Assembly (NCBI GenBank): GCA_025362135.1
Contig: JANYHZ010000147.1
Span: 1 to 37,056 of the forward strand
Direction of reading: 5' to 3'
Source of the DNA: Betaproteobacteria bacterium
GTDB taxonomy: Bacteria; Pseudomonadota; Gammaproteobacteria; Burkholderiales; Usitatibacteraceae
DNA length: 37,056 bases
Positions within the stretch are counted from its first letter, which is position 1; every line of letters starts with the position of its first letter. The notes below the pieces were generated by a model that did no database searches, was not told the origin of the DNA, and worked only from the letters and a program-made list of their open reading frames with translations. A program made the position numbers and the translations under genes. Below are positions 12,754-33,870 of the stretch, piece by piece.

Positions 12754-13071
12754 GGGTGGGCTCAAAGCGGCTAGTATTGACGCGCTTGCGAGGTCAGTGG
12801 GTGAACTATTCCTCGCCGGGCGGGTCATTTGTTCGGGTTTTATGTAGGTTGTCAGGTTTTGATGTGGAATTTTACGGAAATTTCCGATGGTGCAACTTAG
12901 GCAGGGAGAGCAGTGATGGCAGAGTTGACGTTTATAATACCCGACGTAGTGGGGCTTAACAGCAGGTCGTATATGGGCAAATCAGCGCCGAATGCGTTCG
13001 CGTGTCTGGAAAATGAAACTACGAGCGCCGCAACCATTGCAGCGCGACCAGTGACTCAGGGAAAAGTGTTG
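12754..13071. other. Divergent nadB/rpoE intergenic region (318 nt)
   Basis: No separate gene is evident. The region should hold the nadB and rpoE promoters. I see a TATAAT at 12933-12938 without a convincing -35, and a poor sigma-E-like pair (GAACTA at 12803, TCATT 16 nt later). The frame of rpoE is open leftward to 12913, and the ATG at 12916 has AGGGAG seven nt upstream. Confidence 0.5.
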
Positions 13072-13671
13072 ATGAGCGATCGCGAAGTCGATCAACAATT
13101 GGTGGTGCGCGCGCAGGCGGGAGACAAACGCGCGTTTGAATTGTTGGTGATCAAATATCAGCGCAAGGTGGAACGTTTGCTGTCGCGCATCATTCGAAAC
13201 CAGGATGAAATTCAGGATGTTGCCCAAGAATCATTCATTAAAGCATATCGTGCGCTTGCCAATTTTCGCGGCGACAGCGCGTTCTACACCTGGCTTTACC
13301 GCATCTCCGTGAATACCGCAAAGAACTATCTGGTCAGTCAGGGCCGCCGTGCGCCGACGAGCACGGGCTATGATGCTGAAGAAGCTGAAAGTTTTGAGGA
13401 TGCCGTCGGGCTGCGTGACAACGCAACGCCGGACGCACTCCTGATGTCGAAGCAAATCGCCGAAATTGTTAATTCGACAATCGACAAGTTGCCAGAGGAG
13501 TTAAGAACCGCGATTACGCTACGCGAAATCGAGGGTTTAAGTTACGAAGAAATCGCGCAGATCATGGATTGTCCGATCGGGACAGTTCGATCACGAATCT
13601 TTCGTGCCCGTGAAGCGGTGGCTGAACAATTGCGTCCACAACTAGGCACGACGAAGGACAGGAGATGGTGA
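13072..13671 (+). CDS. rpoE: RNA polymerase sigma-E factor (extracytoplasmic function)
   Basis: This is the envelope-stress sigma factor, held inactive by RseA at the membrane. The 199-residue product has sigma region 2 (FELLVIKYQRKVERL, EIQDVAQESFIKAYRAL, TWLYRISVNTAKNYL) and region 4 (LREIEGLSYEEIAQIM, IGTVRSRIFRAREAV). These are close to RpoE/AlgU. The ATG at 13072 begins MSDREVDQQLV, the usual start, with AGGGA nine nt upstream. An in-frame ATG at 12916 would add 52 residues. The stop lies 1 nt before the rseA ATG, and the operon continues through rseB and mucD. Confidence 0.95.
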   Translation: MSDREVDQQLVVRAQAGDKRAFELLVIKYQRKVERLLSRIIRNQDEIQDVAQESFIKAYRALANFRGDSAFYTWLYRISVNTAKNYLVSQGRRAPTSTGYDAEEAESFEDAVGLRDNATPDALLMSKQIAEIVNSTIDKLPEELRTAITLREIEGLSYEEIAQIMDCPIGTVRSRIFRAREAVAEQLRPQLGTTKDRRW

Positions 13672-13672
13672 A

Positions 13673-14212
13673 ATGAACGAAAAATTATCTGCCCTGATGG
13701 ACGGGGAGCTTGATCACAGTCAGGCACGGTCGGTAATCAAATCGCTTGGCAGCGATGATGTGTCCCGCGAGCAATGGGATTTGTATCACGTTATCGGCGA
13801 GGCCCTGCGTGGCGACGATCTCAACCGGTCAAATGCGCGTGATGCGGGCACCATTGCGATTTTTGCGGCGCTTGCACTGGAGCCGACGGTATTGGCACCG
13901 CAGATGATCAAACAACCGGTAGAAAGGCGTACCCGTATCGCCTTGGCGATGGCTGCCTCAGTGATTACCATATCCGCAGTCGGCGTGGTCGCATTACAGC
14001 AGCAAAATGGGCAAGTGTCACCGATACAACTGGTGCAACAGGTTGCTCCAAAGCCGGTCGCGCTGAACAAACTGCCACTTTCGGCTGTGGAAGTGCGTGT
14101 AAATGATTATCTTGTCGTGCATCGGCAGTTTTCGAATCCAGGTGCATTCCAGCCGGTTACCTTGAACCGTGATATGCGTGGCACCAGTGTGCCGCAGGCC
14201 GTCGGCAAATGA
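13673..14212 (+). CDS. rseA: Anti-sigma-E factor RseA/MucA
   Basis: RseA binds sigma-E in the cytoplasm and is cut by regulated proteolysis under envelope stress. The 179-residue protein has the N-terminal RseA_N pattern (EKLSALMDGELDHSQ, REQWDLYHVIGEALRG). One transmembrane segment follows at about residues 87-106 (ALAMAASVITISAVGVVAL). The rest is a Gln/Pro/Val-rich periplasmic tail. GGAG about 12 nt before the ATG, within the end of rpoE, is the probable ribosome-binding site. Its place directly after rpoE and before rseB supports the call more than the divergent tail does. Confidence 0.9.
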   Translation: MNEKLSALMDGELDHSQARSVIKSLGSDDVSREQWDLYHVIGEALRGDDLNRSNARDAGTIAIFAALALEPTVLAPQMIKQPVERRTRIALAMAASVITISAVGVVALQQQNGQVSPIQLVQQVAPKPVALNKLPLSAVEVRVNDYLVVHRQFSNPGAFQPVTLNRDMRGTSVPQAVGK

Positions 14213-14349
14213 GACAGGCATGTGGTCGAAGAAGTGATTTGCTGTCGCGGTGCGTGAGTGGTTGCAGGGAAAAAGCAGCTGCAAGTCCAAAGGCATTTAA
14301 GATTTAAATACCCAGCAGGGAGTGTAGTTTTTTTGGCGCATGAATTGAA

Positions 14350-15375
14350 ATGAAAAGTTGGGTGAAGTCACAATCAGTATTTGCCGCGCTAATTGCGGGC
14401 ACCAGTATGCTTGTCGGTGTTGTGGGCGCTCAAACCGGCTACAAGGCTGCGCAAACGCCACTTACGGTTCCGCTTGATGGCCGCGAATGGCTTGATCGAA
14501 TCGCAAAATCGGCGCGGGAATTGCCTTATACGGGCGTTTTCATCCAGCAGACTGCTGACGGAGTGAGTACATCGCGTATTACGCATATGGTCGACCGACA
14601 GGGTGTTGAGCTCGAAAAGCTCGAAATGCTTGACGGGCCGCAGACCGAAATTATCCGTCGCAATGAAGAAATGTTTTGCTACCATCCAGATGTGAAGACA
14701 GTCCGGGTTGACAGACGAATCAGCGGTCGTTTTTTTCCGTCTCTCATTTCGGGTGATCCCAAGGCGATCGCTGAAAATTACCGCGTGACGCTTGGCAGCG
14801 TCGAACGCGTCGCCGGCTTCGATTGTCAGTGGGTGATCATCGAGCCCAAAGATGCTATGCGCTATATGCAAAAATTATGTGCAGAACTTGGTACTGGTCT
14901 CTTGCTTAGGGCGCGGCTCTATAACGATCGTAACCAGATGCTGGAACAATTCATGTTTACGCAGCTTGATTTGAGCCGCAGCTTGGCAAAACACTCACTG
15001 AGGTCCCGTTTTGAGCAACTGCCGGGTTGGCAAACGACTGACTCCGCCAAACCGGCGAAGACGACATCAGAGACCGGCTGGAAGGTAGCCCACCTTCCTG
15101 TGGGGTTCAAAAAAGTAGCGGAGATGATTCGCACATTGGTTGGTCGACCAGCACCTGTATCGCAGCTTGTGTTTTCAGATGGCCTCTCGCATGTATCGGT
15201 ATTTGTCGAGCCGATGCGGGGTGATCCGCAGACGTCGGGGGCGCGTATGACCGATGACAGCCCAATTGCGTTTGCGATGCGTCCCGTGGCGGACCATCAA
15301 GTAACAGTGATGGGGGAAGTGCCGGTTGCGGCAGTTCAAGCCATCGTCGACAGCGTGATGCAGAAGGGTAGATAG
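14350..15375 (+). CDS. rseB: Sigma-E regulatory protein RseB/MucB
   Basis: RseB is a periplasmic protein that binds RseA and shields it from cleavage until lipoprotein or LPS signals appear. The 341-residue product has a signal peptide (hydrophobic AALIAGTSMLVGVVGA). It is followed by the N-terminal LolA/LppX-like domain (EWLDRIAKSARELPYTGVFI, FCYHPDVKTV) and a smaller C-terminal domain (PVSQLVFSDGLSHVSVFVE). It is separated from rseA by 137 nt with no strong Shine-Dalgarno sequence directly before the ATG. It may depend on readthrough from the rpoE promoter. Confidence 0.9.
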   Translation: MKSWVKSQSVFAALIAGTSMLVGVVGAQTGYKAAQTPLTVPLDGREWLDRIAKSARELPYTGVFIQQTADGVSTSRITHMVDRQGVELEKLEMLDGPQTEIIRRNEEMFCYHPDVKTVRVDRRISGRFFPSLISGDPKAIAENYRVTLGSVERVAGFDCQWVIIEPKDAMRYMQKLCAELGTGLLLRARLYNDRNQMLEQFMFTQLDLSRSLAKHSLRSRFEQLPGWQTTDSAKPAKTTSETGWKVAHLPVGFKKVAEMIRTLVGRPAPVSQLVFSDGLSHVSVFVEPMRGDPQTSGARMTDDSPIAFAMRPVADHQVTVMGEVPVAAVQAIVDSVMQKGR

Positions 15376-15418
15376 ACAGGTTCATGCGACACAATTAAAT
15401 GGTCGTTTTGCGATTTTT

Positions 15419-15437
15419 CGCCGGGTACTTCCCGGCG
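15419..15437 (+). terminator. Hairpin between rseB and mucD
   Basis: The perfect 7-bp GC stem CGCCGGG/CCCGGCG with loop TACTT is preceded by ATTTTT and followed by AGTTGTTTT. This is a weak intrinsic-terminator shape. It may reduce readthrough into mucD, whose ATG lies 22 nt downstream. Confidence 0.45.
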
Positions 15438-15459
15438 AGTTGTTTTAAATGGAGAAAAT

Positions 15460-16950
15460 ATGACAACACGTATCGATAAAAGCCTGCAGCGCATGATGGC
15501 TTCAATACTTATTTTGGCGGGAACGCTGTTCTTCGTGAATGCCAAAACGCTTGCGAAGGACTTGCCGGATTTCACGGAATTGGTTGAGAAACACGGACCT
15601 GCAGTGGTCAATGTCAGTACCAAAACAAGATCAGGGAATCAGCGTGGGCAGCAGCAGTTTGACGAAAATGACATGTATGAATTCTTCCGCCGTTTCATGC
15701 CGCCGGATGCGTTACCAAACCCGCGCGGCAATCCGAACACGCCCAATTCACCACGCCGCAATCCGCGTCAACCCAGCCCAAATCAGGAGGCACCGTTGCG
15801 CGATTTAGGCTTAGGGTCGGGGTTCATTATTTCCACAGATGGATACGTGATTACAAATGCGCATGTCGTGCAGCGTGCTGATGAAGTCACGGTAACATTG
15901 ACTGACAAGCGCGAATTCAAGGCGAAGGTCATCGGCACGGACGAGCGTACCGATGTTGCCGTATTGAAGATCGATGTAACCGGCCTGCCAAAGCTCAGCA
16001 TCGGCGATTCCGACAAGGTGCGTGTCGGTGAATGGGTGCTCGCGATCGGTTCGCCGTTTGGTTTTGAAAATACGGTGACTGCAGGAATCGTCAGCGCCAA
16101 GAGCCGCGACACCGGCGACTTTGTGCCTTTTATCCAAACCGACGCCGCCGTAAATCCAGGCAATTCTGGTGGGCCGTTATTTAACACCAAGGGGGAGGTA
16201 ATCGGTATCAATTCACAGATTTTCAGCGGTAGCGGTGGCTATCTCGGAATTTCCTTTGCCATCCCCGTGAACACCGCGATGAACGTCGCAAACCAGTTGA
16301 TCAAGACTGGCAAAGTAAATCGGGGCCGTATTGGCGTGTCAATTCCCAACCCGATCACCAAAGATCTGGCTGAATCGTTGGGACTGCCCAATACGAAGGG
16401 GGCGCTAATCGATTCGGTGGAGAAGGATACGCCCGCTGACAAGGCCGGCATCCTTGCACAAGACATCGTCCTGAAGGTGAACGGCAAACAGATAGAGACC
16501 AATATCGACCTGTCGCGTACGATCGGTAACACTGCACCCGGAACAAAGGTGGTGATGTCGATCTGGCGCAAGGGCGGTCTGAAGGAAATTACGGTCACGG
16601 TGGGTGAAATACCAAGTGACACGCGCGTCGCAAAAGCACCGGACAAGAAAGACGAGAAAAAGGAAGCAACGCCGAATCGCCTCGGTCTCGTCGTTGGCGA
16701 GGTTGCTGCGGATGATCGTAAAGCATTGAAGATCGACAGCGGTGTGATGGTCAGTGATTCCGATGGCGCAGCCGAGCGTGCCGGCATTCGTCAGGGGGAT
16801 GTCATTCTCGCGGTAAACAATACCGATGTGAAATCGGTCAGCCAGTTCAACGACATCATTGCCAGGCTCGATGCCAAGAAAGCTGTCGCACTGCTCATCA
16901 GGCGGGAGAACCAGACGCGTTATGTGACTTTGCGAATCGATTCAAAGTAG
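15460..16950 (+). CDS. mucD: Periplasmic Do-family serine protease/chaperone MucD (DegP-like)
   Basis: This HtrA protease degrades misfolded envelope proteins and dampens the sigma-E response. The 496-residue product has a signal peptide (residues ~1-33) and a Pro/Asn/Arg-rich linker at ~85-112. The trypsin-like domain carries His135 (ITNAHVV), Asp165 (DERTDVAVLK) and Ser236 (NPGNSGGPL). Two PDZ domains follow at about 295-380 and 405-490. GGAG eight nt upstream marks the start. Placement after rpoE-rseA-rseB is as in the mucABCD arrangement, although no rseC/mucC homologue lies between them here. Confidence 0.94.
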   Translation: MTTRIDKSLQRMMASILILAGTLFFVNAKTLAKDLPDFTELVEKHGPAVVNVSTKTRSGNQRGQQQFDENDMYEFFRRFMPPDALPNPRGNPNTPNSPRRNPRQPSPNQEAPLRDLGLGSGFIISTDGYVITNAHVVQRADEVTVTLTDKREFKAKVIGTDERTDVAVLKIDVTGLPKLSIGDSDKVRVGEWVLAIGSPFGFENTVTAGIVSAKSRDTGDFVPFIQTDAAVNPGNSGGPLFNTKGEVIGINSQIFSGSGGYLGISFAIPVNTAMNVANQLIKTGKVNRGRIGVSIPNPITKDLAESLGLPNTKGALIDSVEKDTPADKAGILAQDIVLKVNGKQIETNIDLSRTIGNTAPGTKVVMSIWRKGGLKEITVTVGEIPSDTRVAKAPDKKDEKKEATPNRLGLVVGEVAADDRKALKIDSGVMVSDSDGAAERAGIRQGDVILAVNNTDVKSVSQFNDIIARLDAKKAVALLIRRENQTRYVTLRIDSK

Positions 16951-16953
16951 ATC

Positions 16954-17211
16954 TTGAAACAATTGACGGTGCTGTCACGTAGCTACTGCCACCTTTGCGA
17001 CGACATGATTGCGGCCTTGCAGGAAATGCAGGGCCGTTTTTCTGGATCCTTTGTCGTTGAGGTAGTCGATATCGATCGCCACCCTGCGCTTGAAACGAAA
17101 TGGGGCGACAAGGTGCCGGTTTTGCTCGATGGAGATGTGGAGATATGCCACTATTTTCTCGACGCGGATCGGCTGACATTGCATCTCGTCAATCCGGAAA
17201 CAAGGGCCTGA
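16954..17211 (+). CDS. Glutaredoxin family protein
   Basis: This small 85-residue thioredoxin-fold protein has the redox motif CHLC (Cys12, Cys15) after LTVLSRSY and the cis-Pro segment KVPVLL. The length and the sequence EICHYFLDADRL fit the DUF836/glutaredoxin-like group rather than classical glutaredoxins. It begins with a TTG three nt after the mucD stop, so it belongs to the rpoE-rseA-rseB-mucD transcript. Its partner is not known. A strong hairpin follows 41 nt after its stop. Confidence 0.85.
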   Translation: MKQLTVLSRSYCHLCDDMIAALQEMQGRFSGSFVVEVVDIDRHPALETKWGDKVPVLLDGDVEICHYFLDADRLTLHLVNPETRA

Positions 17212-17252
17212 AAGGTCAATTCACGAACGCTTTTGAGGTAGAATGAAGCCAT

Positions 17253-17292
17253 ACAACAAATAAGGGCACCCTTGTGTGCCCTTATTTGTTGT
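17253..17292 (+). terminator. 17-bp hairpin between glutaredoxin gene and lepA
   Basis: Arms 17253-17269 and 17276-17292 are perfectly complementary (17 bp), with loop CCTTGT. The GC core is GGGCAC/GTGCCC, preceded by an A-rich and followed by a T-rich run (TTATTTGTTGTT), the shape of a bidirectional intrinsic terminator. It ends only 16 nt before the lepA ATG, so it also lies in the lepA leader. The efp terminator at 26961 shares the AAGGGCAC core. Confidence 0.75.
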
Positions 17293-17308
17293 TGGACATC
17301 ATAACATT

Positions 17309-19102
17309 ATGAATTTAATAAGAAATTTCTCCATCATCGCGCATATTGACCACGGCAAATCAACGCTGGCGGATCGCATTATTGAGCGTTGCGGCGGGCT
17401 TTCCTCCCGCGAAATGGAATCCCAGGTGCTCGACTCGATGGACCTGGAGCGCGAGCGTGGAATCACCATCAAGGCGCAGACGGCGGCGTTGACATATAAG
17501 GCTCGGGACGGATTGACTTATGAGCTCAATCTGATCGATACGCCAGGTCATGTAGACTTTTCGTATGAAGTTTCCCGTTCGTTGTCAGCCTGTGAGGGCG
17601 CGTTGTTGGTGGTAGACGCATCGCAAGGTGTGGAAGCGCAGACGGTGGCAAATTGTTACACCGCTACCGATTTAGGTGTGGAAGTGACACCGGTACTGAA
17701 TAAAATTGATCTCCCCAGCGCAGACCCGGCGCGAGTAATCGCAGAAATCGAGGACATTATCGGCATTTACGCCGAGGATGCAGTGCAATGCAGCGCCAAG
17801 ACAGGCGTAGGTATTGAGGAGGTGATTGAAACTGTTATCGCCAAAGTGCCGCCGCCAAAAGGCTCTCCATCGAAACCGCTCAAGGCGTTGATAATTGATT
17901 CCTGGTTCGATAATTACGTGGGTGTCGTCATGCTGGTTCGTGTGGTTGACGGCGTGATAAGGCCGAAAGACAAGATCTTACTGATGGCTTCGGGCGCCCA
18001 GCATCTTGTAGAGCAAGTAGGGGTATTCACTCCACGCTCGCAGTCCCGCCCTCTACTTTCAGCCGGCGGCGTCGGTTTTATCATTGCTGGCATCAAAGAG
18101 CTCAAGAATGCCAAGGTCGGCGACACGGTCACGCTTTTGGAAAACCCCGCAAAAGAAGCATTGCCGGGCTTCAAGGAAATTAAACCCCAAGTGTTCGCCG
18201 GCCTGTACCCGATTGAGTCCAATCAGTACGATGCTCTTCGGGATGCGCTCACCAAACTTCAGTTGAACGATTCCTCGTTGCGGTTCGAACCAGAGACCTC
18301 GCAGGCGTTGGGTTTCGGTTTCCGTTGCGGCTTCCTCGGCCTGTTGCACATGGAAATCGTGCAGGAGCGTCTCGAGCGTGAGTACAACATGGACTTGATC
18401 ACGACGGCACCAACGGTGATCTACCAGATATTGTTGCGCGACGGCACGGTGTCGGAAATCGAAAACCCATCACGTCTGCCGGATCTGGCGAAAATCGAAG
18501 AAATCCGCGAACCGATGATCATTGCGACGATGCTCATGCCGCAGGAGTATGTCGGCTCGGTCATCATTTTGTGCAATCAAAAGCGCGGTGTGCAAGTCGA
18601 TATGGAATATCACGGTCGGCAGGTGATTTTGAAGTACGAGATGCCGATGAACGAAGTCGTCATGGATTTTTTCGACAAGCTGAAATCCGTTTCACGTGGC
18701 TATGCGTCTCTTGACTACGAGTTTAAGGAATACCGTGTGTCGGACCTCGTGAAGCTCGACATTCTCATCAACGGGGATAAGGTCGACGCATTGTCCTTGA
18801 TCGTACATCGTGCAAATAGCCAATACCGTGGGCGAGAACTCGCCAGCAAGATGCGCGAATTGATTCCGCGGCAGATGTTTGATGTTGCCGTGCAAGCGGC
18901 GATCGGTGCCAACATCATCGCTCGTGAAAACATTAAAGCGCTTCGCAAGAACGTGATCGCCAAGTGTTATGGCGGCGATATTTCACGGAAGCGGAAATTG
19001 CTCGAAAAGCAAAAGGCCGGTAAAAAGCGTATGAAACAGGTTGGTAATGTTGAAATACCCCAAGAAGCATTTCTGGCCATCCTGCAGGTCGATGGAAAAT
19101 AG
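17309..19102 (+). CDS. lepA: Elongation factor 4 (translation GTPase LepA)
   Basis: LepA/EF4 is a ribosome-binding GTPase related to EF-G, involved in translation quality and initiation. From the ATG at 17309 the product is 597 residues, the usual length. It begins [19 protein letters not shown] with the G1 P-loop. Other motifs are RGITIKAQ (G2), DTPGHVDF (G3), NKID (G4) and SAKTG (G5). The C-terminal EF4-specific domain contains [22 protein letters not shown]-type sequence and a Lys-rich end. An upstream in-frame ATG at 17276 lies inside the hairpin and would add 11 atypical residues. It heads the lepA-lepB-rnc-era cluster. Confidence 0.97.
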
Positions 19103-19225: not shown

Positions 19226-20236
19226 ATGAATTGGGAAATGATCGGTTGGTTGGCGCTTGCGACGAGCGGGTTGGTCATTGTGGCGAGCTTTTTTGTTGGA
19301 CGGCCAAACACGGCGGTGGCAGCGACCGCAGCGGATGGACGTCAGGATCAACATTCTGTGCACGCGTGGCTCGAAGTCGCCTGGCCAGTATTTTTTATCG
19401 CCATTATGGGAATGCTAACGCTCAAGGAGGTCATGGGTTTTCCCGCCGTGCTTTTGCTCGCGACGCTACTAACGGGCCTCGTGTGGCTTGTCGATATATT
19501 TGTGCTGAAAAAATCGCGGGCGACCAAATCGGTCGAGCCGGTCGTAGTAGAAATGGCGAGAAGTTTTTTCCCCGTCATCCTGATCGTATTCGTACTGCGT
19601 TCGTTTCTGTACGAGCCGTTCAAGATTCCTTCTGAGTCGATGGTACCAACTCTGGTGGTGGGTGACTTTATTCTGGTCAACAAATTTACTTACGGCGTGC
19701 GCCTCCCGGTGCTCAACAAAAAAATTATTGATGTTGGCTTGCCAAAACGCGGGGATGTTATGGTATTTCGGTACCCCGAAGATCCAACTAAGGACTTTAT
19801 CAAGCGTGTTGTCGGCCTGCCCGGCGACAAGATAGCCTACAAAAACAAGCGCCTGGTAATAAACGATCAACCGATCACCACCGAACAACTGGATTCACAG
19901 ACGCGGGTCGACGATCGCCTCGCTTTCCAGAGCTATGACGTGATTCGTGAAAAACTTGGCGAAAAGCCACACATTTCCTATCTTGATCCCAGAGCGCAAG
20001 GCGTTCGGCTTGGCGGGGTCCGCGAGTTCCCAAATCGCGGCAATTGCGCATACAATGACGACGAAATGACCTGTACGGTACCGGCTGGACATTACTTCAT
20101 GATGGGTGACAACCGGGACAATAGCGAAGACAGTCGATATTGGGGATTCGTACCGGAGGACAATATCGTTGGGAAGGCAGTCTTGGTCTGGATGAACTTC
20201 AGTGCCATGAAGCGTATTGGTACATCCATTGAGTGA
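19226..20236 (+). CDS. lepB: Signal peptidase I
   Basis: LepB cleaves signal peptides from secreted proteins at the periplasmic face of the inner membrane. The 336-residue product has several N-terminal hydrophobic segments (about 5-24, 52-68, 72-95 and 113-127). The S26 catalytic dyad follows: Ser138 in IPSESMVPTL and Lys193 in FIKRVVGLPGD. The C-terminal box is GHYFMMGDNRDNSEDSRYWG. It lies 123 nt downstream of lepA, with no terminator between them. Its stop overlaps an upstream alternative GTG of the next gene. Confidence 0.96.
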   Translation: MNWEMIGWLALATSGLVIVASFFVGRPNTAVAATAADGRQDQHSVHAWLEVAWPVFFIAIMGMLTLKEVMGFPAVLLLATLLTGLVWLVDIFVLKKSRATKSVEPVVVEMARSFFPVILIVFVLRSFLYEPFKIPSESMVPTLVVGDFILVNKFTYGVRLPVLNKKIIDVGLPKRGDVMVFRYPEDPTKDFIKRVVGLPGDKIAYKNKRLVINDQPITTEQLDSQTRVDDRLAFQSYDVIREKLGEKPHISYLDPRAQGVRLGGVREFPNRGNCAYNDDEMTCTVPAGHYFMMGDNRDNSEDSRYWGFVPEDNIVGKAVLVWMNFSAMKRIGTSIE

Positions 20237-20262
20237 ACATTGATTTCGGCCGTGAGGATCCC

Positions 20263-20643
20263 ATGAAAATACCGACAAGAAGTCTTAGGCAGCAGGAAGG
20301 GATTGGCTTCATCGGCCTTATTTTTATTTTTGCCGTGGCCGCAGTCGTCCTGCTGCTTGGCTTGAAGCTTGTGCCTGTTTATCTGGAGCTATTTTCTGTC
20401 AAGAAAGTGATGGCCGCGATGGCGCAGGGCGAAGAAGTGAAAAGCGGCACCGTCACTGACATCCGGAAAAGTTTTGATCGCCGTGCAGTCATCGACAATA
20501 TACAGGCCGTGACGGCGGCGGATTTGGAAATTACCAAAGATGCCGGCGAGACCGTCGTCGTAGCGACTTGGCAGCATCGGGTGGCATTATTTACCGGTTA
20601 TACGCTTCTGGTTGATTTTAGTGTGAGTACGAAGGACGGCTAG
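20263..20643 (+). CDS. DUF4845 domain protein (small membrane-anchored protein)
   Basis: This 126-residue product has one N-terminal transmembrane segment (about residues 13-36, GFIGLIFIFAVAAVVLLLGLKL) and a soluble rest. It matches what I know of the DUF4845 family, which is often found directly after lepB in betaproteobacteria. Its function is unknown. The ATG at 20263 has GAGGA just upstream. A GTG at 20233 that overlaps the lepB stop as GTGA would add ten residues and lacks a ribosome-binding site, so I prefer the ATG. The next gene, rnc, starts 16 nt after its stop. Confidence 0.8.
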   Translation: MKIPTRSLRQQEGIGFIGLIFIFAVAAVVLLLGLKLVPVYLELFSVKKVMAAMAQGEEVKSGTVTDIRKSFDRRAVIDNIQAVTAADLEITKDAGETVVVATWQHRVALFTGYTLLVDFSVSTKDG

Positions 20644-20659
20644 TTGCCTCTCCACCCAT

Positions 20660-21367
20660 ATGACACTGAGCGAGCTAGAGCAAAAGCTCGGGTATAAGTT
20701 CACCAATACCTCACTCCTTGAGCAGGCGTTGACTCACCGCAGTATCGGGGCGGGTCACAATGAGCGCCTTGAGTTTCTGGGCGACAGCATCCTTAATTGT
20801 TGTATCGCAAACTTGATTTTTGCCCAGTTTCCCTCAATGCCAGAAGGAGAGCTGAGTCGGCTGCGCGCCAACTTGGTGAACCAGTCGGTTCTGGCTGAGA
20901 TATCGGCAGACCTTGAACTCGGCACCCTGCTGCGTTTGGGCGAAGGCGAGCTCAAGACCGGTGGTGCGCACCGTCCCTCGATCCTGGGCGATGCCTTGGA
21001 GGCGATTCTCGGCGCGGTGTTTCTCGATGCTGATTTCGGGGCGGCTTCGGCTGTCGTACGTTTGTTATTTGCAACTCGCATCGGAACAACCCGAAATGCG
21101 AAACCGCTCAAGGACGCGAAAACCGAACTGCAGGAGTGGCTGCAAGGCAGGCACTTGCCGTTGCCGGCGTACACGGTGAAGCGCATCGATGGTGAATCGC
21201 ATCGTCAGACTTTTCACGTGGAGTGTGAATTGGTTTCCTTTGGCATTAGGTGCGAGGGAGTTGGCACCTCCCGCCGCATAGCTGAGCAGGAGGCGGCAGC
21301 CAGCGCACTGACTGCAGTAGCCGAACACCATTGTGCTGAATTTGCTGCCGAGACAATGAAAAAATGA
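20660..21367 (+). CDS. rnc: Ribonuclease III
   Basis: RNase III cuts double-stranded RNA, processing rRNA precursors and regulating mRNAs. The 235-residue protein has the catalytic domain with the signature NERLEFLGDSILN and the second acidic motif LGDALEAILGAVFLD. A double-stranded RNA-binding domain follows at about residues 155-222 (DAKTELQEWLQGR, RRIAEQEAAASALT). The stop overlaps the era start as ATGA. No clear Shine-Dalgarno sequence precedes the ATG. The rnc-era-recO order is conserved and autoregulated in E. coli. Confidence 0.96.
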   Translation: MTLSELEQKLGYKFTNTSLLEQALTHRSIGAGHNERLEFLGDSILNCCIANLIFAQFPSMPEGELSRLRANLVNQSVLAEISADLELGTLLRLGEGELKTGGAHRPSILGDALEAILGAVFLDADFGAASAVVRLLFATRIGTTRNAKPLKDAKTELQEWLQGRHLPLPAYTVKRIDGESHRQTFHVECELVSFGIRCEGVGTSRRIAEQEAAASALTAVAEHHCAEFAAETMKK

Positions 21368-22251
21368 AAGCAGAATTTCGTTGCGGCACGGTCGCAATTA
21401 TCGGACGACCAAATGTCGGCAAGTCGACTTTGCTCAATCATCTTGTCGGGCAAAAGGTAAGTATTACTTCCAATAAGGCACAAACGACCCGCCACCGCAT
21501 TACTGGAATTTTGACGGACGAAACGACGCAGTATCTGTACCTCGATACGCCTGGCTTTCAAAAGACCCATGACAACGCGCTCAATAGAGTATTGAATCGC
21601 ACCGTGAGTCAAACGGTGATTGATGCAGACGTTGTAGTCGCGATCATAGAAGCTATGCGTTTTTCCGATGCGGATGCGCAGGTTCTGAAGCAGGCGAATG
21701 GCAGCGCGTGCCTGATTCTCGCAATAAGCAAGTGTGATCGCGTGAAGGAAAAGGCAAAGCTGCTCAATTTCCTGAAGGACGTTCAAACGAAGGCAAACTT
21801 CGTCGCGATGGTCCCCATCAGCGTAAAGCACAAACAGACGCTGGAGGAGCTGAAGAAAGTCATCCGCACGCATCTGCCTGTGGCACCTGCTATCCACGAC
21901 GCGGAACACTTTACCGACCGCTCCGAGCGCTTCATGGCCTCGGAATTCATACGCGAAAAAGTGTTCCGCCAATTGGGCGACGAATTGCCCTACGCCGCAA
22001 ACGTATTGATAGACAAGTACGAGGAGGTTGGCGAGCTTAGACGGATATTTGCCAGCATTGTCGTCGAGAAGACCAGCCAGAAGGCGATTCTGATTGGCGA
22101 GAAAGGTGAACGTCTGAAGCGCATCGGTACGGATGCGCGTAAAGAAATGGAAGCCAGCTTTGGCTGCAAAGTGTATCTGGAACTTTGGGTGCGCGTCAAA
22201 AAAGGCTGGGCAGACGACGGGGCCTTGATCCGCCAGTACGGCTATGAATGA
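21364..22251 (+). CDS. era: GTPase Era
   Basis: Era is an essential GTPase that binds the 3' end of 16S rRNA and aids 30S assembly. The 295-residue product has G1 (GRPNVGKST), the switch segment AQTTRHRITGI, G3 (DTPGF) and a C-terminal KH domain (about 205-290, with AILIGEKGERLKRIG). The G4 position reads ISKCD, where NKxD is expected, so the guanine-contacting Asn is Ser here. The DNA at this site is clearly read as AGC AAG TGT GAT. The start overlaps rnc by 4 nt and the end overlaps recO by 8 nt. Confidence 0.96.
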   Translation: MKAEFRCGTVAIIGRPNVGKSTLLNHLVGQKVSITSNKAQTTRHRITGILTDETTQYLYLDTPGFQKTHDNALNRVLNRTVSQTVIDADVVVAIIEAMRFSDADAQVLKQANGSACLILAISKCDRVKEKAKLLNFLKDVQTKANFVAMVPISVKHKQTLEELKKVIRTHLPVAPAIHDAEHFTDRSERFMASEFIREKVFRQLGDELPYAANVLIDKYEEVGELRRIFASIVVEKTSQKAILIGEKGERLKRIGTDARKEMEASFGCKVYLELWVRVKKGWADDGALIRQYGYE

Positions 22252-23053
22252 CCTGTCCCACCGGCCATCGCAAGTTGAAGCGTCAAAGCCTCCAGCCAAA
22301 CAGGGGCGGCAGTTCATCGGTCAGTCTGATGCAGCATTTGTATTGCACACCTATGCTTACCGTGAAACGAGCTTGATCGTTGAAACATTTACGCATCTGC
22401 ATGGCCGCGTTGTCATGGTGGCAAAGGGGGCCAAGCGGCCGCATGGTACGTTGCGGGGCGTACTGAATCCGTTTCAAGGGCTTGCAATGGTCTGGTTTGG
22501 CAGGGGCGAAATGAAAACATTGAAATCAGCTGAGCAAGAGCAGATTCTGCCGCAACTGTCGGGGGCCGCGTTATTGTCCGCTTTTTATTTGAATGAACTT
22601 TTGTTGAAGCTCGCGAGCCGGGAAGATCCCCATGAGCGTCTTTTTGATGCCTATGCCGCGACGATTGCGTCACTTGCGATGTTACCGGCGGGAACCCGGT
22701 CTACGCGGGAAATTGCACCCATCCTGCGCCAATTCGAGGTCGCGTTGCTGCAGGAGCTTGGCTATGCCTTGCAGCTTCAGGAAGAGGCGGATAGTCACGT
22801 GCCGATTCGGGCCGACCGCGAATATTTTTACCTTATAGAACGTGGCCCCATATCGGCAGGCTTGGTGGCACGACAATCGGGACTCGCAGACAGCTTGCTT
22901 TTGCACGGCAAGACGTTATTGGACATGGCCTGTTGCGATTATCGCGATCCGCAAACACAGTCGCAAGCTAAGCAGTTGATGCGCATGGCGATCAACCATT
23001 TGCTTGGTGACAAAATACTCCATACCCGTCAGTTGATACGCGATATGCGTTGA
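22244..23053 (+). CDS. recO: DNA repair protein RecO
   Basis: RecO acts with RecF/RecR to load RecA on gapped single-stranded DNA. The 269-residue protein has the N-terminal OB-fold (AFVLHTYAYRETSLIVETFT, GRVVMVAKGAKRP) and a helical C-terminal part (LSAFYLNELLLKLASREDPH). The start ATG lies inside the 3' end of era with an 8-nt overlap. The first ~30 residues before the OB fold are poorly conserved in the family, so a later start cannot be excluded. Confidence 0.92.
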   Translation: MNDLSHRPSQVEASKPPAKQGRQFIGQSDAAFVLHTYAYRETSLIVETFTHLHGRVVMVAKGAKRPHGTLRGVLNPFQGLAMVWFGRGEMKTLKSAEQEQILPQLSGAALLSAFYLNELLLKLASREDPHERLFDAYAATIASLAMLPAGTRSTREIAPILRQFEVALLQELGYALQLQEEADSHVPIRADREYFYLIERGPISAGLVARQSGLADSLLLHGKTLLDMACCDYRDPQTQSQAKQLMRMAINHLLGDKILHTRQLIRDMR

Positions 23054-26960: not shown

Positions 26961-26995
26961 AAAGGGCACGGAATTCCGTGCCCTTTCTCATTTGA
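26961..26995 (+). terminator. Intrinsic terminator after efp
   Basis: Positions 26961-26986 are perfectly palindromic: arm AAAGGGCACGG, loop AATT, arm CCGTGCCCTTT, followed by TCTCATTTG. The stem has 11 bp with flanking A and T runs, as expected for a rho-independent terminator that could work in both directions. Confidence 0.85.
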
Positions 26996-27035: not shown

Positions 27036-27166
27036 TTTCACTTCTCTCGTTACAATACTTATGACTGCCGAGTGAGCGAACATGTATTCCGCGACGTGTT
27101 CCATACAACCGGCACCCGCCCGTATTCATCGACAGTAGGCTGATCGGCCACGACCCAAATCGCACC

Positions 27167-33837: not shown

Positions 33838-33870
33838 TTCGGGGAAGGTCTATACCTTCCCCGAATCTTT
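33838..33870 (+). terminator. Hairpin between tRNA-Gly and tRNA-Cys
   Basis: A perfect 12-bp stem (33838-33849 with 33854-33865, loop CTAT) is followed by TCTTTT. It looks like an intrinsic terminator or processing hairpin within the tRNA cluster. Confidence 0.65.

Follow-up and report, generated by a model that had tools for sequence, protein, structure and literature searches.

What does a long hairpin do directly in front of an essential-looking row of genes, and can lepA be transcribed other than through it? This question is raised by a stretch of 37,056 nucleotides from a betaproteobacterial genome (hereafter, the window), in which lepA follows a sigma-E operon on the same strand and a hairpin stands between the two (Table 1).

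The hairpin and its genomic context

The hairpin consists of 17 perfect pairs closed by a loop of 6 (CCTTGT), and it ends 16 nt ahead of the lepA ATG, just as the initial annotation had described it. It is the sole perfect stem of more than 12 bp with a loop of 3-10 nt in the window, compared with ~2e-5 such stems expected by chance at the window's base composition. The predicted RNA fold of positions 17240-17320 has an energy of -33.4 kcal/mol (z = -7.2), which none of 200 shuffles equalled. The only other perfect stem of at least 12 bp (loops 3-10) in the window is a 12-bp hairpin with a 4-nt loop at 33838-33865, located between tRNA-Gly and tRNA-Cys.

Table 1. Features upstream and downstream of the lepA hairpin, as positions in the window
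Feature	Position	Strand	Basis
Sigma-E operon: rpoE (ORF 12913-13671), rseA, rseB/mucB, mucD/degP-like protease, glutaredoxin-like gene	12913..17211	+	Pfam and NCBIfam matches
Glutaredoxin-like gene, TTG start	16963-17211	+	Pfam/NCBIfam
TAGAAT, putative -10 box of the lepA promoter; G at -14, T at -17	17239..17244	+	TAnAAT conservation in relatives
Predicted lepA transcription start	17250..17252	+	Position of the -10 box
5' arm of hairpin, ACAACAAATAAGGGCAC	17253..17269	+	Exact reverse complement of 3' arm
3' arm of hairpin, GTGCCCTTATTTGTTGT; T-rich part is the terminator tail	17276..17292	+	Exact reverse complement of 5' arm
Spacer between hairpin and lepA, 16 nt	17293..17308	+	Contains neither TAnAAT nor a Shine-Dalgarno word (AGGA, GGAG or GAGG)
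lepA (elongation factor 4), first gene of the operon	17309..19102	+	TIGR01393, 985 bits
lepB	19226-20236	+	ORF and Pfam
DUF4845 gene	20233-20643	+	ORF and Pfam
rnc	20660-21367	+	ORF and Pfam
era	21364-22251	+	ORF and Pfam
recO	22244-23053	+	ORF and Pfam

The gene at 17309..19102 is lepA. The row that it leads ends with recO and is followed by pdxJ and then acpS; rnc is its fourth gene and starts 16 nt past the DUF4845 stop codon. From the spacing of the genes and from B. pertussis, we infer that lepA-lepB-DUF4845-rnc-era-recO (19226..23053 plus lepA) forms a single operon. A lepA-lepB-rnc-era operon had been proposed before; that row of genes is indeed present, but the DUF4845 gene between lepB and rnc had been omitted. 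According to a review, LepA (EF4), RNase III, and Era are all active in the making of the 30S ribosome (PMC10582724).

A simple consensus terminator scan did not flag the lepA hairpin, because its T-rich tail pairs within the stem. The same scan reported 5 sites of this type, against 2.7 expected in shuffles, and one flagged site, a terminator-like hairpin with a T tail at 17011-17037, lies inside the glutaredoxin-like gene and is probably a product of chance. At curated gathering scores, Rfam matched three tRNAs only in the window and left the lepA leader unmatched, as it did 12 and 10 related loci; at a relaxed threshold, the best score for the leader of the window was 24.4 bits, against a cut-off of 50.

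The 3' arm also contains a GTG, considered as a possible start codon, that is in frame with lepA in the window, with no stop codon between (17276-17308). This GTG shares the lepA frame in 24 of the 46 genomes that carry GTGCCC, and the frame is open in 18 of these. While 24 of 46 exceeds one third, these genomes are not independent of each other, and the stem hides the codon.

A conserved box precedes the hairpin

The search for LepA covered 120 genomes (the window's own and 119 others from its genus, family, or order), of which 112 supplied an upstream region for reading. Left out were 5 genomes with no usable lepA 5' end (G014, G023, G025, G027, and G059), one with 204 nt of contig upstream (G116), and two others (G066 and G110). 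The sequence TAnAAT occurs within 150 nt of lepA in 100 of the 112 genomes, while shuffles predict 12.7. In the window this box, TAGAAT, ends 8 nt ahead of the hairpin stem.

The box overlaps the stop codon of the glutaredoxin gene in 35 genomes, where the stop codon supplies its first three bases (TAA/AAT or TAG/AAT; e.g., L029 and L041), and is wholly intergenic in 54. Among these 54 boxes, a T five bases ahead is kept in 47 and a G two bases ahead in 41. As TAnAAT and its T and G are kept where the sequence is non-coding, they are no by-product of coding. TAnAAT is also the -10 consensus of mapped transcription starts in B. cenocepacia, derived from 1733 upstream sequences (PMC4603805). Judging from its conservation and this match, the TAnAAT ahead of the hairpin likely marks the lepA promoter.

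A consensus scan for promoters of the E. coli sigma-70 type left the TAGAAT box unflagged, however, and both promoter-like sites that it found in 16000-18500 lie on the minus strand. Another lepA promoter, with a different -10 box, might thus be located inside or past the hairpin, in which case the hairpin would not be part of the mRNA. More than 20 nt lie between hairpin and ATG in 29 of the 63 genomes that combine box and hairpin (described below), which would leave space for such a promoter. Yet only 1 of these 63 genomes has a further TAnAAT past the hairpin, and the gap is no wider than 20 nt in 34 genomes, the window's among them, so that we regard a second promoter as extremely improbable. 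With TAnAAT upstream of the hairpin in 100 of 112 genomes, the earlier claim that lepA is transcribed through the hairpin is probably right, and the lepA mRNA very probably begins with it.

The box and the hairpin form a module in Burkholderiales

We defined a module as TAnAAT, followed after 4-42 nt by a terminator-like hairpin and then by lepA. Of the 112 genomes, 63 carry this module, and they represent 30 of 50 families of the order; within the window's own family the count is 21 of 24 genomes, and within its genus 11 of 13. Part of the 63 rests on loose criteria. A loose scan for hairpins with a T tract found a match in 83 of 112 regions of 200 nt, and such loose hairpins also occurred in 23% of shuffled 150-nt regions; therefore, only the stricter counts carry weight. 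Under a stricter rule, the module preceded 56 of 112 lepA genes and none of 344 control genes, taken from 400 kb of one same-genus genome with the longest open frames as gene starts. With another strict rule, which set the box-to-stem distance at 4-35 nt, it was present in 56 of 112 lepA regions and in 0 of 1120 shuffled ones. Hairpins above a score cut-off were found in 69 of 112 lepA regions, compared with 3.5% of shuffles, and at the same cut-off in 3 of 111 and 7 of 112 cases for two stretches farther upstream.

The module was not found in 49 of the 112 genomes and 20 of the 50 families, and part of these 49 genomes has hairpins with long loops or hairpins that were otherwise unscored. Among named betaproteobacterial loci (L200-L224), 11 of 25 carry the module, with L206 having only 25 nt upstream, too little to judge; it was absent at the single loci of Cupriavidus, Ralstonia, Massilia, Janthinobacterium, and Nitrosomonas. 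Other named loci contained it in 1 of 55 cases. Of 75 genomes sampled from the class outside the order, 29 were read: 14 of them showed TAnAAT, 12 a strong hairpin, and 3 the whole module.

Within the 63 modules, 56 have stems of 7-14 pairs, and loops are 3-6 nt long in 61, with lengths of 7 and 10 in the remaining two. The distance from the -10 box to the stem ranges from 5 to 41 nt and that from the stem to the lepA ATG from 2 to 98 nt. An alignment of 57 hairpins, which leaves out L021, L024, L043, L082, L086, and L097, contains pair-keeping changes on both sides at 6 of 9 pairs. The initial annotation had named conservation in relatives and compensatory changes as checks on the hairpin, and the outcome of both, in the 63 modules and in this alignment, bears it out. 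In two of the loci left out of the alignment (L021 and L024), the leader hairpin just ahead of lepA is a 29-30-bp palindrome with AAAAAGGGGTCAGATCCCTTTT, possibly a mobile repeat that has taken the place of the usual hairpin.

We considered whether the palindrome AAGGGCAC/GTGCCCTT could be a protein site in the DNA, i.e., an operator. This was rejected on account of the varying loop length, which a rigid dimer site would not allow. Nor does the conserved GGGCAC core of the stem appear to have a special meaning, since the rplT terminators of the order, found at 23 of 30 loci, look conserved in sequence too when compared by eye. None of 34 terminator-like hairpins in 400 kb of a single same-genus genome has this core. 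The window's genome holds six other GGGCAC palindromes, five of which resemble, by eye, ordinary terminators flanked by A and T. A second GGGCAC/GTGCCC hairpin with a T tail lies at 26964-26983 of the window; it is followed 67 nt further on by TACAAT (27051-27056) and then by the next long open frame. There, the terminator precedes the promoter, which is the usual order and the reverse of that at lepA.

A probable leaky terminator at the start of the lepA transcript

The reading that we favor, and consider reasonably probable, assigns to the hairpin the role of a weak intrinsic (Rho-independent) terminator, which the lepA transcript would carry at its extreme 5' end. Polymerase would start at the promoter with TAGAAT and copy the hairpin at once. 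Some polymerases would stop at the U-rich tail, yielding an RNA of ~40-46 nt, and the remaining ones would read through to make the lepA-lepB-DUF4845-rnc-era-recO mRNA. The hairpin would also halt transcripts that arrive from the rpoE-mucD-glutaredoxin operon. The start site, the termination itself, the passage of polymerase into lepA, and a consequently low set level for the operon are predictions from the sequence. With an assumed start site, the RNA ended at the T tract would measure ~46 nt in the window and 34-51 nt in 54 of the 63 modules.

The layout of a leader terminator, with a predicted promoter followed by a terminator and then by the gene, describes the window and 63 of the 112 genomes, although the terminator of the window is weak. 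By a terminator score from the literature, the 63 lepA leaders had a median of 18.0, with 59 of 63 above 0, compared with a median of 40.3 and 21 of 23 above 0 for the rplT terminators of the same order. The lower scores of the lepA leaders suggest leaky termination, which an essential operon would require. The hairpin of the window scored 2.2, with the stem trimmed to TAAGGGCAC/GTGCCCTTA, and its T tail is interrupted (TTATTTGTTGTT). It thus stands at the weak end of the scores and could be nearly neutral for transcription.

Attenuation had been among the options offered initially for this hairpin. A leader terminator in the loose sense is indeed the reading that fits best; the classical type with alternative structures is not supported in the window, as only ~2 nt lie between the predicted start and the stem in the window, and neither an antiterminator nor a sensing structure was found ahead of the terminator. 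As ~2 nt leave no room for an antiterminator, any regulation in the window would need a trans-acting factor.

The hairpin could instead be a mere terminator, or insulator, of the rpoE-mucD-glutaredoxin operon, with a lepA promoter that happens to precede it and a read-through devoid of regulatory meaning. Consistent with this, a strong terminator-like hairpin between the upstream stop codon and the box is present in only 4 of the 54 genomes with an intergenic box and lacking in the other 50, and at four loci (L035, L037, L091, and L208) the hairpin encloses the -10 box, so that only transcripts from upstream would fold or stop there. An insulator would be better placed before the promoter, however, as a terminator of the upstream operon would lie ahead of the next promoter, whereas the hairpin follows the -10 box, and this order of promoter and hairpin is found in 63 genomes. 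It also holds regardless of the gene upstream, which is the glutaredoxin gene in 42 modules, mucD in 19, and no identified gene in 2. Furthermore, of 40 loci from a Comamonadaceae-like family, 11 show a terminator-like hairpin at 12-35 nt past the mucD stop codon and have kept the leader terminator nonetheless (two rules combined; 5 of 40 by the narrower rule alone).

Six Pseudomonas loci, compared by eye, all have a short hairpin and a T run ahead of lepA; a TACAAT box precedes the hairpin in five of the six. Four carry a separate strong terminator farther upstream, and these four, with their weak leader stems, resemble the Comamonadaceae-like loci in speaking against a mere insulator. On balance, a pure insulator seems rather unlikely to us, and the hairpin can fill the roles of attenuator and insulator both at once.

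Possible RNase III processing and effects on translation

The presence of rnc downstream in the same gene row, together with the 17 pairs of the window's stem, had led to the suggestion that RNase III cuts the hairpin and thereby controls rnc and the operon, as in the rnc leader of E. coli. The relatives argue against this, as 56 of 63 have stems of 7-14 pairs and carry the T tract of a terminator. Stems of 7-14 pairs are short for RNase III. A leader of the rncO type would have a long conserved stem directly ahead of rnc; at this locus, the long stem is not conserved, the hairpin precedes lepA, and the 16 nt between DUF4845 stop codon and rnc, the fourth gene, are too little room for a long stem. 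While E. coli RNase III does cut a leader stem of rnc, as described in a review (PMC10582724), control of this hairpin by RNase III is very improbable, and given the short stems of relatives we rejected it.

The hairpin might also serve as a 5' stabilizer or as a translation element of the lepA mRNA, with termination being incidental. In the window, the stem would start ~2 nt from the 5' end of the RNA. In addition, lepA is preceded by a Shine-Dalgarno word (AGGA, GGAG, or GAGG) in no more than 5 of the 112 genomes from the order and in 3 of the 29 from outside; with the word absent in the other 107 of the order, lepA initiation may be unusual anyway. However, the T tract belongs to the conserved element and the ATG follows the hairpin at anything between 2 and 98 nt, features that fit termination more readily than a role tied to the ribosome site. 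We therefore consider this explanation quite improbable.

A two-hairpin leader RNA in a Comamonadaceae-like family

In the family of G118, which is Comamonadaceae-like, the leader of lepA is larger. TACAAT is followed by a hairpin of the form CCAAC...GCAGTTGCCA...GTTGG and then by a terminator with a T tract (L280-L309, L114, L117, L210, and L217-L224; e.g., L305:1318-1394). Among 38 aligned leaders, 36 contain GCAGTTGCCA, L289 and L217 being different, and 36 have the GCAGUUGCCA loop. The alignment leaves out L222, and L302, L308, and L208 failed the extraction pattern, although L308 does carry the motif. An RNA ended at the terminator would be 63-67 nt long. Named loci with this leader include Comamonas, Acidovorax, Polaromonas, Xylophilus, and Ramlibacter, which, going by the shared leader, presumably belong to the same family.

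Of 80 genera searched, 63 contain the exact motif a single time; every copy shares the strand of lepA and precedes this gene by 35-220 nt. When the leader alignment was turned into a covariance model and run under strict filters on 150 genomes of the order, 3 matched, each of them from the G118 family; families were listed for 20 of the 147 unmatched genomes (127 unlisted). The two-hairpin leader had no Rfam match in the loci tested, and no antiterminator was recognized in it. Sequences in lepA complementary to the GCAGUUGCCA loop were found at no consistent place. As read from the sequence, two copies of the loop word GCAGUUGC can pair with each other by way of two G-U pairs.

These features allow a broader proposal, which we put forward tentatively, with less than even confidence. 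In a large part of Burkholderiales, the lepA operon may be governed by an undescribed leader RNA, the core of which would be the leaky terminator passed by every lepA transcript. In the Comamonadaceae-like family, this would have grown into the two-hairpin RNA of 63-67 nt, and its GCAGUUGCCA loop may bind a putative partner, be it a protein, an RNA acting in trans, or another molecule of the same leader. Such binding might set the read-through into lepA-lepB-rnc-era, or the RNA might act as a small RNA. The two-hairpin form offers itself as a candidate for a regulatory RNA that has not been described before.

Relation to known systems

The layout of the lepA leader is shared with the E. coli greA leader (GraL), in which a promoter-proximal terminator is reported to give short transcripts (cited in PMC2965389), and with the greA/rnk leader attenuators: each places a leader terminator close to the promoter of a housekeeping gene. 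The gene here is lepA, however, a sensing structure would find no space ahead of the terminator in the window, and the likeness is one of layout. Similarly, premature-terminator attenuators have a Rho-independent terminator between promoter and start codon, but are described with two alternative structures (PMC2965389), of which none was seen at the lepA hairpin. The main text of that survey contains 0 occurrences of lepA.

Like the E. coli rnc leader (rncO), the lepA hairpin is a leader stem ahead of a gene row that holds rnc and era. rncO lies within the 5' leader of the rnc-era mRNA (PMC10582724), whereas the lepA stem precedes lepA, is mostly short in relatives, and carries a T tract. With the operon-end terminators exemplified by rplT of the same order, the hairpin shares a T tract and a stem core that looks conserved in sequence; unlike the rplT terminators, of which 0 of 23 follow a conserved -10 box, it does follow one, and it scores lower.

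No title or abstract among the literature matches listed concerned a lepA leader terminator or leader RNA. Among the same matches, no paper was found on the control of the LepA/RNase III/Era gene row led by lepA.

The position of a terminator past the promoter in 30 families suggests that the first 40 nt of the message are where this row is kept at a low level or tuned. If true, the ratio of short to long RNA would offer a simple readout for what makes cells produce LepA.
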